Below, one piece after another: positions 1-7,821 of a stretch of 8,013 nucleotides of DNA. The notes beneath the pieces are model-generated. The model had not been told where the DNA came from. It did no database searches and worked only from the letters and a program-made list of their open reading frames with translations. Position numbers and translations under genes: made by a program. This DNA is from a bacterium (GTDB lineage Bacteria > JAJVIF01 > JAGGVT01), in the NCBI GenBank assembly GCA_021157815.1, contig JAGGVT010000133.1, forward strand, positions 1 through 8,013. The letters are read 5' to 3'. Within the stretch, counting starts at the first letter, position 1. Each line of letters opens with the position of its first letter.

Positions 1-380
1 CGCTGATCTTTTTCTGGTGGAATCATAAGCTGCCTTATAGCCTCAAATACCTGTCTGAACTGCTTGTCATATTTCGACTCAAGTTCATCAAGACGTTTTG
101 CCAGTTTCGCGTTGGATGCAATAATACCGCGCAGACGGACGAAAGCCCTCATGATTTCGATATTCACCTTGACAGCCCTTTCGCTGTTCAGCACACTTGA
201 GAGCATAGCCACTCCCTGTTCAGTGAAGGCGTATGGCGGGTAACGTCGACCGCCCCACGATCTTGAGGTGCCAAATTGGCATCTCAAGTTTTGCTCCAGA
301 CCGTAGGGGCAACTCTCCGTGGTTGCCCTGTATTTATGCCAAAACTTTTGGCAGGCACGGAGACCTGCCCCTACATTCAT
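1..380 (-). pseudogene. ORF6N-domain protein, C-terminal part, 5'-disrupted, runs off left edge
   Basis: The reading frame from about position 297 down to 1 gives a recognisable ORF6N segment: [20 protein letters not shown], then an IMRAFVRLR stretch and a helical tail with [12 protein letters not shown] and [11 protein letters not shown]6N proteins are phage- and island-associated and are thought to bind DNA; no enzyme activity is established. The usual N-terminal half, which carries the LAxLYGV-type motif, is absent. Instead a 72-bp palindromic repeat (303-374) lies directly upstream. The frame stays open through the repeat to an ATG at 378-380, so a short chimeric protein of at least 126 residues could be made, but I see no good ribosome binding site. 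I read it as a gene broken by, or rebuilt on, the repeat. The family call is fairly sure; functionality is doubtful. The 3' end is outside the window. Confidence 0.7.
303..374. repeat. 72-bp nested palindromic repeat (copy 1)
   Basis: The ends are perfect inverted repeats, GTAGGGGCA (303-311) and TGCCCCTAC (366-374). Inside are three hairpins: GGGCAAC/GTTGCCC (307-313 with 322-328, loop TCTCCGTG), TGCCAAAA/TTTTGGCA (337-344 with 346-353, single-base loop), and GGCAGG/CCTGCC (350-355 with 364-369, loop CACGGAGA). The loops of the outer two hairpins are exact reverse complements, and their stems differ by paired changes (AAC/GTT against AGG/CCT). A related copy lies inside hsdM at 1877-1928. 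This is the architecture of REP/MITE-like elements. No mobilising enzyme is seen in the window. Confidence 0.85.
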
Positions 381-564: not shown

Positions 565-1647
565 CTATTTGGATAACAATTCATAGAGTTTAACATTTAT
601 GTAGATATTCTCCCTCCCGGCTTTTTGCTTTTTTAAAATACCGATTTTCGCACATTCATCAAGATATAAAGCAGCAGTCTGACGTTCTGCAATTCCGGCA
701 TCTACCACAGCCTGATTCCTGCAATAAGGCATGACAAAAAGAAGTTCAATTAATTCCTTGGAATAGACCCTTTTAGGTAAATCGTTTCGAGCTTTTTCGA
801 TGGTTTGATCCAGCAGACTACGAATATTCATTATCTTCTTTCTGGTGTCGTTGGAAGTTATTTCGATACCTTCCAGCATGAAGAGAATCCATGGTTCCCA
901 CTTTTCGGATTTTGATATGCCAAGGAGAAGTTTCTGATACTTGGTTCTGTTTTCCATGATGAATTTGCTCAGGTAAAGAATGGGAAGGTCAAGCAATCCG
1001 GACTGCACAAGATAGAGAATGCAAAGGATGCGTCCTGAACGTCCGTTGCCATCATAGAAAGGATGAATTGCTTCGAATTGATAATGCTGTACAGCCATTT
1101 TGATGAGCGGGTCAACTTCATTATCGGTATTTAGATATTTTTCAAGGTTAGCCAGTTTATCACGGATAATTTTCTCACCTTCAGGAGGAGTATAAAGCAC
1201 TTTACCTGAGGAGGTGGAAAGCGTTGTGCCGGGGATTTTTCTTATTCCAGCATCAGTACTCTTTATCCGGTTACCGATTTCAACAAGCAGATTAGTTGTA
1301 AGATTCCCTCGTTTTTTCAGTTGATTGAATCCTTCCCAAACAGCGTCTCTGTAAGCAAGGACTTCTTTTGTTTGTGGATCCAAGCCGGATTCATCTGTTC
1401 CCAGGGCTTTGTATAATGCGTCATTGGTTGTAACCACATTCTCAATCTCAGAACTGATTTTCGCTTCCTGTAGAGTGATTGTATTGATAAGTATTGCTGA
1501 ATTGGGAAGTGAATCCTTGGTGCCGTTAAGGGATGCCAGAGAACGAGCAGCAGATGCTGTTTTTTTCAAAACAGGTTTCGTTTCCAAATCCTTCTTTGGT
1601 GGCAGCAATGGTAATTCGTTAAATGGTTTTTGTGGATTAAATACCAT
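565..1647 (-). CDS. Fic family protein, probable AMP-transferase, with C-terminal winged helix
   Basis: The product is a 360-residue Fic protein. Fic enzymes typically transfer AMP from ATP to a hydroxyl side chain of a target protein. The complete catalytic motif [12 protein letters not shown] is at residues 195-206, with the catalytic His first. An N-terminal SSEIEN at 65-70 matches the (S/T)xxxE(G/N) inhibitory helix, so this looks like a self-inhibited class II Fic. Residues about 296-360 look like a winged helix-turn-helix, suggesting DNA binding. I chose the ATG at 1647 rather than an in-frame one at 1695 because GGGAGG lies 7 bases upstream and the start overlaps the hsdM stop by 11 bp, pointing to translational coupling. 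Fic genes are often found inside type I restriction-modification loci, usually between hsdM and hsdS. The target is unknown; control of the locus is a guess. Confidence 0.92.
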
Positions 1648-3229
1648 AACCCAGCCTCCCAAGATTCTTCTTGATTTCCTTTTCCAGCTTCGCACTTTCT
1701 TTGAATTGCTCCTTCAGTTGCGATGTCAGACGTTGCATTTTCTCATCGAATGGTTCGCCGTCATCCTCGATTGCCTCCGCGCCAACATACCGTCCGGGAG
1801 TCAAAACAAATCCGTGAGATTCGATTTCCTCAATCGTTGCGCTCTTGCAGAATCCGGGGATGTCTTCATATTCAGGATAGGCACGGAGACCTGTCCCTAC
1901 TGTAGGGGCATCTCTTTGTGGTTGCCCTCTCCACGCGTGATATGTTTTCGCGATTCGTGAGATATCCTCATCTGTCAGTTCACGATGCACACGGTCTATC
2001 AGCACACCGAGTTTCCGGGCATCGATAAAAAGCGTCTCACCGCGACGATCCCTGAATTTCCCGTTTCCTTTGCTCCGCGAAACAAACCACAGGCAGGCGG
2101 GAATCGCAGTGCCGTAGAACAACTGGCCGGGAAGCGCGATCATGCAATCGACAATATCATTTTCGATAATGCTTTGGCGAATTTTCCCCTCACCGGACTG
2201 GTTACTCGACATCGAGCCGTTAGCGAGAACGAATCCCGCGATACCCTTTGGCGCAAGATGATGAATAAAATGCTGAACCCAGGCATAGTTCGCGTTCCCT
2301 TTTGGCGGGACGCCGTATTTCCAGCGAACATCATCCCTGAGACGTTCACCGCCCCAATCGCTATCGTTGAACGGAGGATTGGCAAGCAGGAAATCAACTT
2401 TTAAATCCTTGTGTAAATCGTTGTGGAATGAATCCGCAGCGTAACCGCCAAGGTTAGCCTCAATCGCGCGAATGGCAAGATTCATCTTCGCCAGTCGCCA
2501 TGTTGTGGGATTGGACTCCTGACCGTAGATTGCGATATTACCGATGCGCCCATTATGAGATTGTATGAACTTTTCGCTTTGAACAAACATGCCAGCCGAT
2601 CCGCAACAGGGGTCATAGACGCGCCCTTTGTACGGTTCGATCATCTCAACAAGCAATTTAACAATGCAGTTCGGGGTATAAAATTCACCGCCTTTCTTTC
2701 CTTCTCTGCTGGCGAATTGTTTCAGGAAATATTCATAAACACGTCCGAGAATGTCCTTGCTTCTGCTGTCAGCATCGCCAAGCCCGATTGTCCCGATGAT
2801 ATCGATTAACCCGCCGAGACGCTGTTTATCGAGTTGCGGACGGTTATAATCCTTCGGGAGAACGCCTTTAAGTGTTGGATTCTCTTTCTCGATTGCGACC
2901 ATCGCATCATCAATTGCCTTGCCGATGGTTGGCAGTTTTGCCTCCGCCTGAAGTTTTGACCACCGAGCATCCTGAGGCACCCAGAAGATATTCTCCGCGA
3001 TATACTCGTCGCGATCCTCAGGATCAGAAAGTTTATCCTCTGTGAGTTTCGCGTGATGCTCGTTAAATGCATCAGAGATATACTTCAGGAATATCAATCC
3101 AAGCGCGACATGCTTATATTCGGATGAATCCATATTACCGCGCATCTTATCCGCAGCAGCCCACAGTTTCTGCTCGAATTCAAGCTTCGCACTGTTGTTC
3201 GCTTTTTTCGTTGTTTTCTTTTTTTCCAT
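1637..3229 (-). CDS. hsdM: type I restriction-modification system DNA methyltransferase subunit (HsdM)
   Basis: HsdM is the N6-adenine methyltransferase of type I systems. With HsdS it methylates the recognition site using S-adenosylmethionine, and with HsdR it forms the restriction complex. The 530-residue product has the N-terminal helical HsdM domain (about 14-150, including [15 protein letters not shown]), then [11 protein letters not shown] (180-190). The AdoMet motif [10 protein letters not shown] is at 206-215, where relatives usually have GSGGMF, and the catalytic motif NPPF is at 284-287. Residues about 435-451 ([17 protein letters not shown]) are encoded by a palindromic repeat and appear inserted between conserved HAWRG and EYEDIPGFC blocks. 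That site lies C-terminal to the catalytic core, so activity may survive. The start at 3229 has only a distant GAGG, about 16 bases upstream. The gene sits 23 bp after a small ORF and overlaps fic. hsdS and hsdR are not in the window. Confidence 0.96.
1877..1928. repeat. palindromic repeat inserted in frame in hsdM (copy 2)
   Basis: The + strand reads GGCACGGAGACCTGTCCCTA, then a second arm starting TGTAGGGGCA and ending GTTGCCC. Each arm is a version of the arms in the 303-374 repeat, here joined tail to tail. The second arm folds with stem GGGCA/TGCCC; the first can form AGG/CCT with the same CACGGAGA loop. It accounts for about 51 bases (17 codons) of hsdM, so the reading frame is kept. 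On the coding strand it gives TVGTGLRA, closely matching NVGAGLRA from the other copy. This resembles protein-coding palindromic elements such as those of Rickettsia in behaviour, not in sequence. Confidence 0.75.
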
Positions 3230-3479: not shown

Positions 3480-4439
3480 TCAACCTCCGATGGAATCTAA
3501 AATGCTGGCTTTCTCAGCGAGATCATACTTTTCAATTTGATGTGTTCCCTCATCGCAGCCCTGATAAAGATCGCTTGCGCGAGTCCATATCTTTTCAAGC
3601 ACATTCTCAGGGGTGATTTCCTGAGCGACAGTGTACCAAAATCCACGTTTGCCTCCAAGAAAAACCGTTTTCTTCGCGAGCGACATAATGCGCCTTTCGC
3701 TGGTGGTTACTGTCAGCACAATAAACCAGTTCGTATGGAATCGTTCCTTCAATTCGGATGATTTCATGTACTCCCGATAAACAATGATCTTTTCCATCCA
3801 CCGCTTGAGAGACATCGTTCCCCGGTCAACCTCGACAAAGAACAATCCAAATTTGCGTTTGAATTTCACGCCGATAATTGCATCCGGGATTACGGATGAT
3901 TCATAGCGCGAGCCATCCTCTTTCCTGCGCACAACGGAAATCCTGTGGCTGTCAGGATTTGTGGATAAAGCCTTGAAGTCCTTTACTCTGCCTTGATCCT
4001 GAGCATCAGCCAGAGACTTCTCATAGGAGATGAGAACATCGTTCACATCGAGAAGATGCTGTATATGGGATAAACCCACTTTGTTGTGGAATCTATTCCA
4101 CGCGATTTCATCGCGAGCTACATCATCCGCTTGAGCTAATAAACGTGCGCCTTTCTCAGCCATTGCATAAATCAGTTTGTGTGAGTACACATTATCCGAA
4201 AGCATGAGCCGATCCAGATACTTGTTGTGGTACATGTATCTGAGACGGTTTTCGATACCGCGCTTGCTTGCTTCGGGAAACAACCATGCTAGTTGTTCAA
4301 GTAAAAGGAATCTGTATTTACAGATTGCCCGGATGAATTCGATATCCCGATCTGTTATCTGAAATCTTGGAGGTTTTTTAGCCCTCCTCTTTTTAGGGAG
4401 TCTATTTTGGTCTGTTTTTCTTTCTCTTGGAGGAATCAT
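3480..4439 (-). CDS. replication-relaxation family protein
   Basis: The 319-residue product matches the replication-relaxation family known from plasmids and integrative elements, whose biochemical role is poorly defined. Residues 1-25 are a very basic tail (KKRRAKKPP). Residues 26-105 form a winged-helix-like region (RFQITDRDIEFIRAICKYRF, with an EQLAWLF helix and MAEKGARLL). The conserved core follows: HIQHLLDVNDVLI (125-137), PDAIIGV (185-191), FFVEVDRGTMSLKRWMEKI (200-218) and YREY. The PD...ExD...K spacing resembles a PD-(D/E)xK nuclease fold; this is an inference. The ATG has no clear Shine-Dalgarno site but sits just after a candidate -10 box, so a leaderless or short-leader mRNA is possible. 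The stop is two bases from the next ATG. Such genes fit a mobile or defence island. Confidence 0.8.
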   Translation of the reverse strand: MIPPRERKTDQNRLPKKRRAKKPPRFQITDRDIEFIRAICKYRFLLLEQLAWLFPEASKRGIENRLRYMYHNKYLDRLMLSDNVYSHKLIYAMAEKGARLLAQADDVARDEIAWNRFHNKVGLSHIQHLLDVNDVLISYEKSLADAQDQGRVKDFKALSTNPDSHRISVVRRKEDGSRYESSVIPDAIIGVKFKRKFGLFFVEVDRGTMSLKRWMEKIIVYREYMKSSELKERFHTNWFIVLTVTTSERRIMSLAKKTVFLGGKRGFWYTVAQEITPENVLEKIWTRASDLYQGCDEGTHQIEKYDLAEKASILDSIGG

Positions 4440-6213: not shown

Positions 6214-6290
6214 TGGTGGGCGTAGCTGGAGTCGAACCAGCGACCTCGTCCTTATCAGGGACGCGCTCTAACCAACTGAGCTATACGCCC
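6214..6290 (-). tRNA. tRNA-Ile (anticodon GAT), CCA encoded
   Basis: The - strand gives a full cloverleaf. The acceptor stem GGGCGTA pairs with TACGCCC, the D-arm contains AGCTCAGTTGGTTAGAGC, the anticodon loop is CTGATAA with anticodon GAT, and the T-arm carries GGTTCGACTCC. The discriminator A is followed by a genomically encoded CCA (6216-6214). It reads the isoleucine codons AUC and AUU. It stands alone and not in an rRNA spacer, and faces away from pyrH. Its 3' end is shared with the recombinase fragment, so it is the likely attachment site of the region to its left. Confidence 0.97.
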
Positions 6291-6507: not shown

Positions 6508-7224
6508 TTGAAACCCGCCTATAAAAGAATTTTGCTGAAACTTAGCGGTGAAGTGCTTGATGAAAAGCCGCCGGATGGTTCATCGAAAACGATGATGGAT
6601 TTTATTATCAACGAGGTGGCTCAGATTCACGCAGCGGGTGTCGAGACCGCGATTGTGATTGGCGGCGGGAATATCATGAGGGGAATCAACAAGGATGATG
6701 AAAATATTCATGACCGTGTTACCGCTGACCAAATCGGCATGCTCGCGACTGTCATTAACGCGTTGAAATTCAAGGACGCGGTTGAATCCCGCAATATCAA
6801 AGCGGTTGTGATGACCTCATTCAGCATAGACAGCATCGCGCAGCGATTTAACAAATCTTCGGCGCTGGAATGTCTTACGGATGGCAAAATCGTGCTTTTT
6901 GCCGGGGGAACATCGAATCCCTTCTTCTCGACCGATTCAGCCGCCGCTCTTCGTGCACTTGAGATTAACGCTGATGTGATAATCAAGGGGTCCAATGTCG
7001 ATGGCGTTTACGATAAAGACCCTGGAAAATTCAAAGACGCGAAAAAACTGGATGAATTGACGTATAATGATGCCCTTGAAAATGATATCCGGGTTTTGGA
7101 TCAAACCGCGTTCGCGCTGTTAAAAGATCATAAAATCCCAATTGTTGTCTATCGCATGGCCGATTCCGGTATGCTTTTGAAAATTATCCGGGGGGAAAAG
7201 GCCGGTTCGATTGTAAGAAATTAA
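6508..7224 (+). CDS. pyrH: uridylate kinase (UMP kinase)
   Basis: PyrH phosphorylates UMP to UDP with ATP in de novo pyrimidine synthesis, in the cytoplasm as a hexamer of the amino-acid-kinase fold. The 238 residues match the usual 235-245. Conserved motifs are KLSGE (11-15), GGGNIMRG (52-59, phosphate and GTP region), ADQIGMLATVINAL (73-86), FAGGTSNPFFSTDSAAALRA (131-150, UMP and catalytic region) and NVDGVYDKDP (163-172, ATP side). The start is TTG at 6508; this fits the family N-terminus (MKPAYKRILLKLSGE), and GAGG lies about 10 bases upstream. frr follows after 42 bp, as in most bacteria. The usual upstream tsf is not adjacent; a divergent tRNA and accessory DNA lie there instead. Confidence 0.97.
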   Translation: MKPAYKRILLKLSGEVLDEKPPDGSSKTMMDFIINEVAQIHAAGVETAIVIGGGNIMRGINKDDENIHDRVTADQIGMLATVINALKFKDAVESRNIKAVVMTSFSIDSIAQRFNKSSALECLTDGKIVLFAGGTSNPFFSTDSAAALRALEINADVIIKGSNVDGVYDKDPGKFKDAKKLDELTYNDALENDIRVLDQTAFALLKDHKIPIVVYRMADSGMLLKIIRGEKAGSIVRN

Positions 7225-7266
7225 GATTATTCGCCGTCAATTACTTTTACGGGAAAGGATAGAAAA

Positions 7267-7821
7267 ATGCTTGATCAACAACTGAACGAATCAAAACGAA
7301 AAATGGAACAGAGTCTGGAAGCGGCCCGCCAGGAATTGGGCAGAATCAGAACCGGACGTGCAAATCCATCGATACTCGACAAGGTGATTGTGGAAGCGTA
7401 CGGGCAGCAGATGCCGCTAATTCAGGTGGCTTCTCTTGCCGTACCCGATCCGCATACAATTGTCATCAAACCATTCGATAAAAGCCAGCTGGCAAATATT
7501 GAAAAAGGGATTTCAAAATCGGATGTCGGATTGCCGCCAAACTCGGATGGCAATATCATACGCCTTCACATTCCACCTCTGACAAAGGAACGCCGCGAGA
7601 AACTTGTCAAACTGGCGAAAACCCAAATTGAAAATGGTAAAGTCTCCATCAGGAACCTTCGCAGGGACGCGAATGATTTCATCAAGGAAATGGAAAAAAA
7701 CAAGGATGTAAGTGAGGACCAGATGAAGGATGGCCTGGACAGAGTTCAGAAACTAACGGATGAGTATATTAAAAAAATGGATGAGCTGATTAAAAAGAAA
7801 GAGGAAGAGATACTTCAATAG
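7267..7821 (+). CDS. frr: ribosome recycling factor
   Basis: RRF works with EF-G to split the post-termination ribosome so that subunits can be reused. At 184 residues it is full length (typically about 185). It shows RTGRANPSIL (28-37), the YGQQMPLIQVASLAVPDP segment of the beta domain (45-62), GLPPNSDGNIIRLHIPPLTK (88-107) followed by ERREKLVK, and RNLRRDAND (129-137). The long helices at both ends form the three-helix bundle. The ATG has AAGGA (7255-7259) 7 bases upstream. It is in the conserved pyrH-frr pair and is probably cotranscribed. Confidence 0.98.
   Translation: MLDQQLNESKRKMEQSLEAARQELGRIRTGRANPSILDKVIVEAYGQQMPLIQVASLAVPDPHTIVIKPFDKSQLANIEKGISKSDVGLPPNSDGNIIRLHIPPLTKERREKLVKLAKTQIENGKVSIRNLRRDANDFIKEMEKNKDVSEDQMKDGLDRVQKLTDEYIKKMDELIKKKEEEILQ

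Follow-up and report, generated by a model that had tools for sequence, protein, structure and literature searches.

The hsdM gene and the palindrome inside it

The window, that is, the whole stretch of 8,013 nucleotides analyzed here, carries an hsdM gene with an intact frame on the minus strand (1637-3229), which encodes the 530-amino acid methylation subunit of a type I restriction-modification (RM) system. The product matched the Pfam domains N6_Mtase (PF02384, E=2.7e-107) and HsdM_N (PF12161, E=5.8e-27) and retained the NPPF catalytic motif at residues 284-287, which is invariant across the HsdM alignment. The two domains and the intact motif place the protein among the HsdM subunits, and its nearest relatives are 74-76% identical. 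A Fic-family gene (565-1695, minus strand; Pfam Fic_N, Fic, and SoFic-like_C) lies directly 3' of hsdM as an accessory gene of the RM locus. HsdM of this type is present as a single copy in the genome, on the window contig (C221). One hsdR match exceeded the cut-off genome-wide, on a second contig (C10), and no HsdS was found in the 91%-complete genome. Three genomes of the same class contained no HsdM of the present type and, hence, offered no close empty site.

Beside hsdM, a Replic_Relax gene (PF13814) occupies positions 3480-4439. A tRNA-Ile(GAT) gene (6214-6290, minus strand) lies between the RM region and two ORFs (6508-7821) that resemble the core genes pyrH and frr. The arrangement of the tRNA, the pyrH-frr-like ORFs, and the Replic_Relax gene looks like an island boundary.

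The repeat within hsdM comprises 53 nt (1875-1927) and covers codons 435-452 of the minus-strand gene. It consists of two GTAG-tagged REP palindromes of 26 nt each, arranged tail-to-tail as a dimer, with their GTAG ends facing each other across a 1-nt T spacer at position 1901. The inverted module (1875-1900) reads GTAGGGACAGGTCTCCGTGCCTATCC on the minus strand and encodes VGTGLRAYP. The second module (1902-1927) has the plus-strand sequence GTAGGGGCATCTCTTTGTGGTTGCCC, contributes GQPQRDAPT to the minus-strand product, and differs by three substitutions from the commonest REP of the genome, GTAGGGGCAACTCTCCGTGGTTGCCC. Both modules begin with an unpaired GTAG, which forms the foot of their palindrome, and their stems and their length agree with the dimensions of GTAG-REPs (stem of about 5-13 bp, total of 20-40 nt). 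The consensus REP stem is GGGCAAC/GTTGCCC, with 7 bp, of which one or two pairs are broken in the hsdM copies. An Rfam search returned no family for the element.

A preliminary description of the window had reported a palindromic repeat at 1877-1928; the repeat is indeed there, with its limits slightly shifted, and it belongs to a sharper class than was then recognized, a GTAG-REP dimer linked to a RAYT gene. The dimer is translated in frame without a stop codon, and the flanking blocks HAWR434 and Y454-EDIPGFC are both intact, in agreement with the earlier view of a coding palindromic element in a restriction-modification gene. The Arg codon in this hsdM is AGA, not CGN. The dimer sits in a linker, here named S1 (1870-1930, minus strand), which runs from HAWR to YEDIPGFC and is a recurrent insertion site among the HsdM relatives. 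The spacing from R434 to Y454 is 19 residues in the window HsdM versus seven in most relatives, where the linker is mostly G-E/D-K-x-A-G-K/E (GEKGAGK or GDKxAGx). The net gain is therefore 12 residues, and the 17 extra codons (51 bases) proposed earlier were an overestimate. The alignment indicates that the dimer substitutes for the usual linker and was not added on top of it. A very close insert-free relative was not found among the HsdM sequences (the best are 76-77% identical), so the exact bases gained and lost at hsdM cannot be read. Homologues without a repeat that carry the same residues at this position, which would have contradicted the preliminary description, were absent from the approximately 136 other HsdM ORFs.

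AlphaFold models with a mean pLDDT of 71-72 agreed on a helix at residues 420-434, a coil after it, and a strand beyond. The model of L039, a relative without an insert, likewise had the linker as a coil between the helix 420-434 and a strand at 449-453, in a block with pLDDT of 84-89. The extra loop anticipated in the preliminary description fits these models: the linker was modeled as a coil, and residues 441-448 of the window HsdM had pLDDT below 50. S1 is predicted to be a flexible coil that joins a late helix in the methyltransferase domain to the next strand. By sequence, the closest solved structure is 3khk, whose linker at this place is shorter.

REPs and a RAYT gene in the same genome

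We searched the 3.2-Mb genome for the minus-strand module with up to three mismatches. The search resulted in seven places, five on C10 and two on the window contig, whereas the reversed-pattern control gave none; the hsdM REP at this stringency is thus restricted to these two contigs, and the hsdM module differs by one mismatch from four of the C10 copies. The looser pattern GTAGGGGCN{11,15}GCCC matched 128 times versus two in the control, a high copy number as seen for GTAG-REPs. The REP family is therefore dispersed through the genome.

The second REP site of the window is a head-to-head dimer with the GTAG ends outward, composed of a left half at 303-328 (plus strand) and a right half at 349-374 (minus strand), the latter where a truncated ORF6N gene breaks off. 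The Pfam match of the truncated gene (3 to about 300, minus strand) covers profile positions 54-86 only. Read over 3-596 on the minus strand, the ORF6N gene is cut at the dimer (303-374), and the second half of the domain stays in frame. Relatives of ORF6N were also observed near hsdM in other loci.

A gene for a REP-associated tyrosine transposase (RAYT) was located at C10:273-1217, with matches to NF047646 (E=2.3e-15, below the curated cut-off) and Pfam Y1_Tnp (E=5e-4). It is flanked by the same REP: copies lie at C10 69-94, 192-217, and 283-308, and two more lie inside the gene, where they are translated as KVGTGLRACP and ARRPVPTL. The peptide KVGTGLRACP is in the same reading frame as the hsdM copy. 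The genome-wide Y1_Tnp search missed this gene, probably because the in-frame repeats split the domain. Between the two in-frame REPs, the RAYT carries an amplified tandem repeat, (IEEGQARIRK)n (G000:C10:651-970, L134), which looks as if it had grown from a REP end and split the transposase domain. The hsdR gene is 1.6 kb downstream of the RAYT. C10 and C221 are separate contigs that likely belong to one RM locus, and the C10 RAYT is the likely source of the hsdM REP.

In the part of the genome scanned, REP-decorated genes were limited to hsdM, the C10 RAYT, the broken ORF6N gene, and a spurious frame of 120 aa. A MITE-like repeat of about 130 bp with GGGGCTGTTGAAAAA ends holds many REPs in head-to-head arrangement. 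This element (GGGGCTGTTGAAAAA...TTTTTCAACAGCCCC, with a REP pair) is present in many copies, often at contig ends (own-genome loci L014-L038). It shares the REP modules with the hsdM copy; however, the latter has no outer inverted repeats and the opposite, tail-to-tail arrangement. The hsdM element was also considered as a DDE-type MITE, an assignment that was rejected, as hsdM codons flank it directly and GGGGCTGTTGAAAAA ends are absent.

Recurrent insertion at two HsdM linkers

For the survey of relatives, we assembled 137 different HsdM ORFs, drawn from 80 loci in named genomes and from 60 loci found among 395 genomes of the phylum to which L063 belongs. Both samples were taken without regard to inserts, and inserts of at least 8 aa were located by alignment to insert-free references. 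The inserts clustered at a few places: S1, a second linker named S2, and sites around residue 60 and residues 220-224, the last two being ancestral length variants.

A repeat insert at S1 was found in 27 of the 116 relatives with a readable linker, 11 of 75 in the named genomes and 16 of 41 in the L063 phylum. Assigned post hoc by pattern and by eye, the inserts fall into at least five repeat families that are unrelated to one another. The GTAG-REPs were found in L056, L062, L063, and L071, and as a head-to-head dimer in L104. The other families are CCCTCTCCC...GGGAGAGGG ('PSPSKGEGRGEG'), here called the CTC type; the GTTCG/CTCAGG and TTCGACAGGCTCAGGACGAA types (L188 and L202); CCCGCGAAAGCGGG / CATTCCCGCGAAAGCGGGAATCC ('HSRESGNP'; L191 and L209); and a CTCCGCG type (L107). 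Across these families, the inserts were found in both orientations and at varied offsets. On an HsdM tree computed with S1 and S2 left out, the S1 repeats called for 18 or more changes, six of which fall to the six GTAG carriers. The presence of unrelated repeats from many phyla in S1, with open frames, gives strong support to the suggestion of the preliminary description that the site tolerates an extra loop.

S2 (CLWF..RxKxxG|xFRDRRG, residues about 387-393) behaves like S1, and the window HsdM is canonical there. In-frame palindromes at S2 were observed, for example, in L081, L083, L192, L205, L209, L216, and L218, including CCCCCCTTTAAAAAAGGGGGG and a GTAG-REP. Stems of at least 8 bp were present in 29 of 40 inserts at S1 and S2, and none of the 26 inserts at the ancestral pair of sites had one (Mann-Whitney p=3e-8); the other length-variable HsdM sites contained no palindromes.

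The CCCTCTCCC palindrome was dispersed in most carrier genomes, with up to 158 copies versus 0-1 in the controls. Genome G125 has two CTC palindromes in total, both within hsdM. In G006, the genome of L063, the hsd locus accounts for five of the seven REP matches, which lie within the RAYT, behind it, and in hsdM. The hsdM REP of L063 is one base apart from the REPs that lie within and next to the RAYT of its locus, and these REPs are nearly absent elsewhere in the genome. In L056, L063, and L104, the CTAC end of the REP provides the TAC that encodes the invariant Tyr. L056 has two copies of the hsdM 3' region (1764-1835 and 3128-3199) with an identical REP in the same linker; therefore, the decorated region was duplicated.

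REPs are non-autonomous elements thought to be moved by RAYT transposases. Rickettsia palindromic elements (RPE) are palindromic repeats translated in frame inside unrelated proteins; they resemble the hsdM element as in-frame palindromes in proteins, and their sequence and host are, as far as is known, unrelated. Di Nocera et al. 2013 (PMC3733652) assigned RPE-4 and RPE-6 to intragenic repeats of R. conorii. The same authors described intragenic GTAG-tagged REPs, inserted in frame, in 'REP-decorated' proteins, with a bias to genes of DNA transactions. They reported dimers with GTAG inside (TT) and spacers of 1-2 bp (O. terrae GTAG-19), dimers encoding 20-30 aa, and different REPs at about one site of recB in two Xanthomonas species, and they accounted for REP survival by flexible linkers or loops. 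The hsdM REPs share the GTAG foot and stem-loop, the TT dimer, the short spacer, and the in-frame insertion with those elements. Unlike that work, whose main text mentions no hsd or restriction genes, the present case is an HsdM linker reused across phyla by several unrelated families. Quentin et al. 2018 (PMC6006769) described in-frame REPs between HuH and Y in tnpA_REP genes of subclass 2.4. The C10 RAYT and RAYTs of other hsd loci likewise carry in-frame REPs after the HUH motif; that work concerns the transposase gene itself, whereas the present RAYTs lie in type I RM loci and, as for C10 and L063, can share the REP with hsdM.

No prior report of in-frame palindromic repeats in hsdM or type I RM genes was found in searches that covered subscription journals thinly. 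Single in-frame REP insertions are already known. As far as these searches reach, the repeated use of one HsdM linker across phyla by several repeat families is new, and so are REP-decorated RAYTs within RM loci whose hsdM bears the same REP.

Proposed origin of the inserts and candidate mobilizer genes in RM loci

RAYTs of the C10 kind, decorated with REPs, were found within 6 kb of hsdM in eight loci (L055, L056, L062, L063, L198, L209, L213, and L219, from the HMM list), with in-frame REPs inside the RAYT in L055, L063, L198, L209, L213, and L219. Some tblastn matches of L062R were rejected as RAYTs; they correspond to its RhuM-like half. A GTAG insert and a RAYT in the locus coincided in 3/6 versus 5/127 loci (Fisher p=0.003), and a CTC insert and DUF559 in 8/19 versus 1/114 loci (p=3e-7). 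In tree-aware pairs, the GTAG-RAYT link was reduced to two or three pairs for and none against, too few to confirm it, and the CTC-DUF559 link was likewise reduced to few independent pairs. For this reason, neither link carries weight in the explanation below.

We consider it highly probable that RAYT-mobilized REPs survive where an HsdM loop tolerates in-frame DNA and that S1 and S2 keep such repeats independently. The REP dimer, as a non-autonomous element, would have been moved by a RAYT (TnpA_REP, Y1 HUH) transposase, with the C10 RAYT, which carries the same REP around and inside it, as the candidate donor. It would have landed in hsdM in a stop-free frame, taking the place of a short flexible linker, and would have been kept because the enzyme tolerates 12 extra residues at S1; HsdM may still be active. 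Insertions elsewhere or out of frame would have been removed by selection. In the HsdMs of many phyla, S1 and S2 have independently retained REPs together with four or more further families of repeats.

Active targeting would explain the same concentration differently: RAYTs, and other type I RM-resident enzymes for the other repeat families, would prefer the DNA of S1, and the RM operon would serve as a safe haven. The decorated RAYTs near hsdM in eight loci, the nearly private hsdM REP of G006, and the two CTC palindromes of G125 agree with it, and the invariant Tyr codon formed by the CTAC end, in half of the GTAG cases, is suggestive. We regard it as unlikely, since a site shared by five or more unrelated families, inserted in either orientation and at varying offsets, fits tolerance better than one target sequence, and since the RAYT and DUF559 links rest on few tree-independent pairs. 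Moreover, concentration at S1 is insufficient to prove targeting because frame-breaking insertions elsewhere cannot be seen. A selected function of the insert, either as an mRNA hairpin tuning hsdM/hsdS expression or as a loop through which a second protein is adapted, would fit the stable plus-strand RNA fold of the dimer (-22.9 kcal/mol, z=-2.7) and the maintenance of open frames. However, the coding-strand fold is weak (-16.6, z=-1.6), the S1 peptides differ completely between families, most relatives have no insert, and one module of the hsdM copy has departed from the consensus by three substitutions, which makes such a function quite improbable.

Type I RM genes often move horizontally, and the palindrome is confined to the RM locus in some genomes; the recurrence could then reflect the spread of a few hsdM genes already bearing the insert. 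Against this very improbable origin, the six GTAG carriers correspond to six tree changes and all S1 repeats to at least 18, the sequence, orientation, and boundaries of the REP differ in each carrier, and the hsdM REP matches the REPs of its own genome. Near-identical hsdM genes with their insert in distant genomes lacking the repeat elsewhere were not seen among the GTAG carriers. The variability of S1 would also allow an ordinary divergent linker that merely looks palindromic, a chance origin that we consider nearly negligible. It is contradicted by the genomic copies on another contig (1 mismatch in 26, control 0), by the canonical length of seven residues, and by the stem comparison, in which the other variable sites had no palindromes; the looser REP pattern (128 versus two) and the plus-strand fold also speak against it.

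With tolerance as the preferred explanation, S1 and S2 are two places at which a type I methyltransferase can take up additional sequence. In-frame mobile palindromes were so far known one gene at a time; HsdM provides a natural replicate, in which unrelated elements entered a single enzyme linker again and again across distant bacteria. The linker offers a means to tell tolerance and targeting apart and to read REP insertion boundaries, and the HsdM loci a means to test local REP movement by RAYTs resident in RM operons.

A related reading, which we hold to be rather unlikely, takes type I RM loci as preferred homes of palindrome mobilizers that insert in frame, with the HsdM and HsdS linkers as true landing sites. 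The mobilizers would be RAYTs for the GTAG-REPs and possibly DUF559 endonucleases for the CCCTCTCCC palindromes, and L218 and L239 would have received a whole DUF559 domain along with the repeats. In these two loci, a nuclease-like DUF559 domain (PF04480) of about 110 aa was observed in frame inside hsdM (L218:5329-7401, minus strand; L239:2401-3657), flanked by CCCTCTCCC/GGGAGAGGG palindromes. This insert resembles a mobile nuclease cassette of the CCCTCTCCC/GGGAGAGGG repeat family, carried in frame. DUF559 domains were also observed in frame inside hsdS in L201, L209, L230, and L233.
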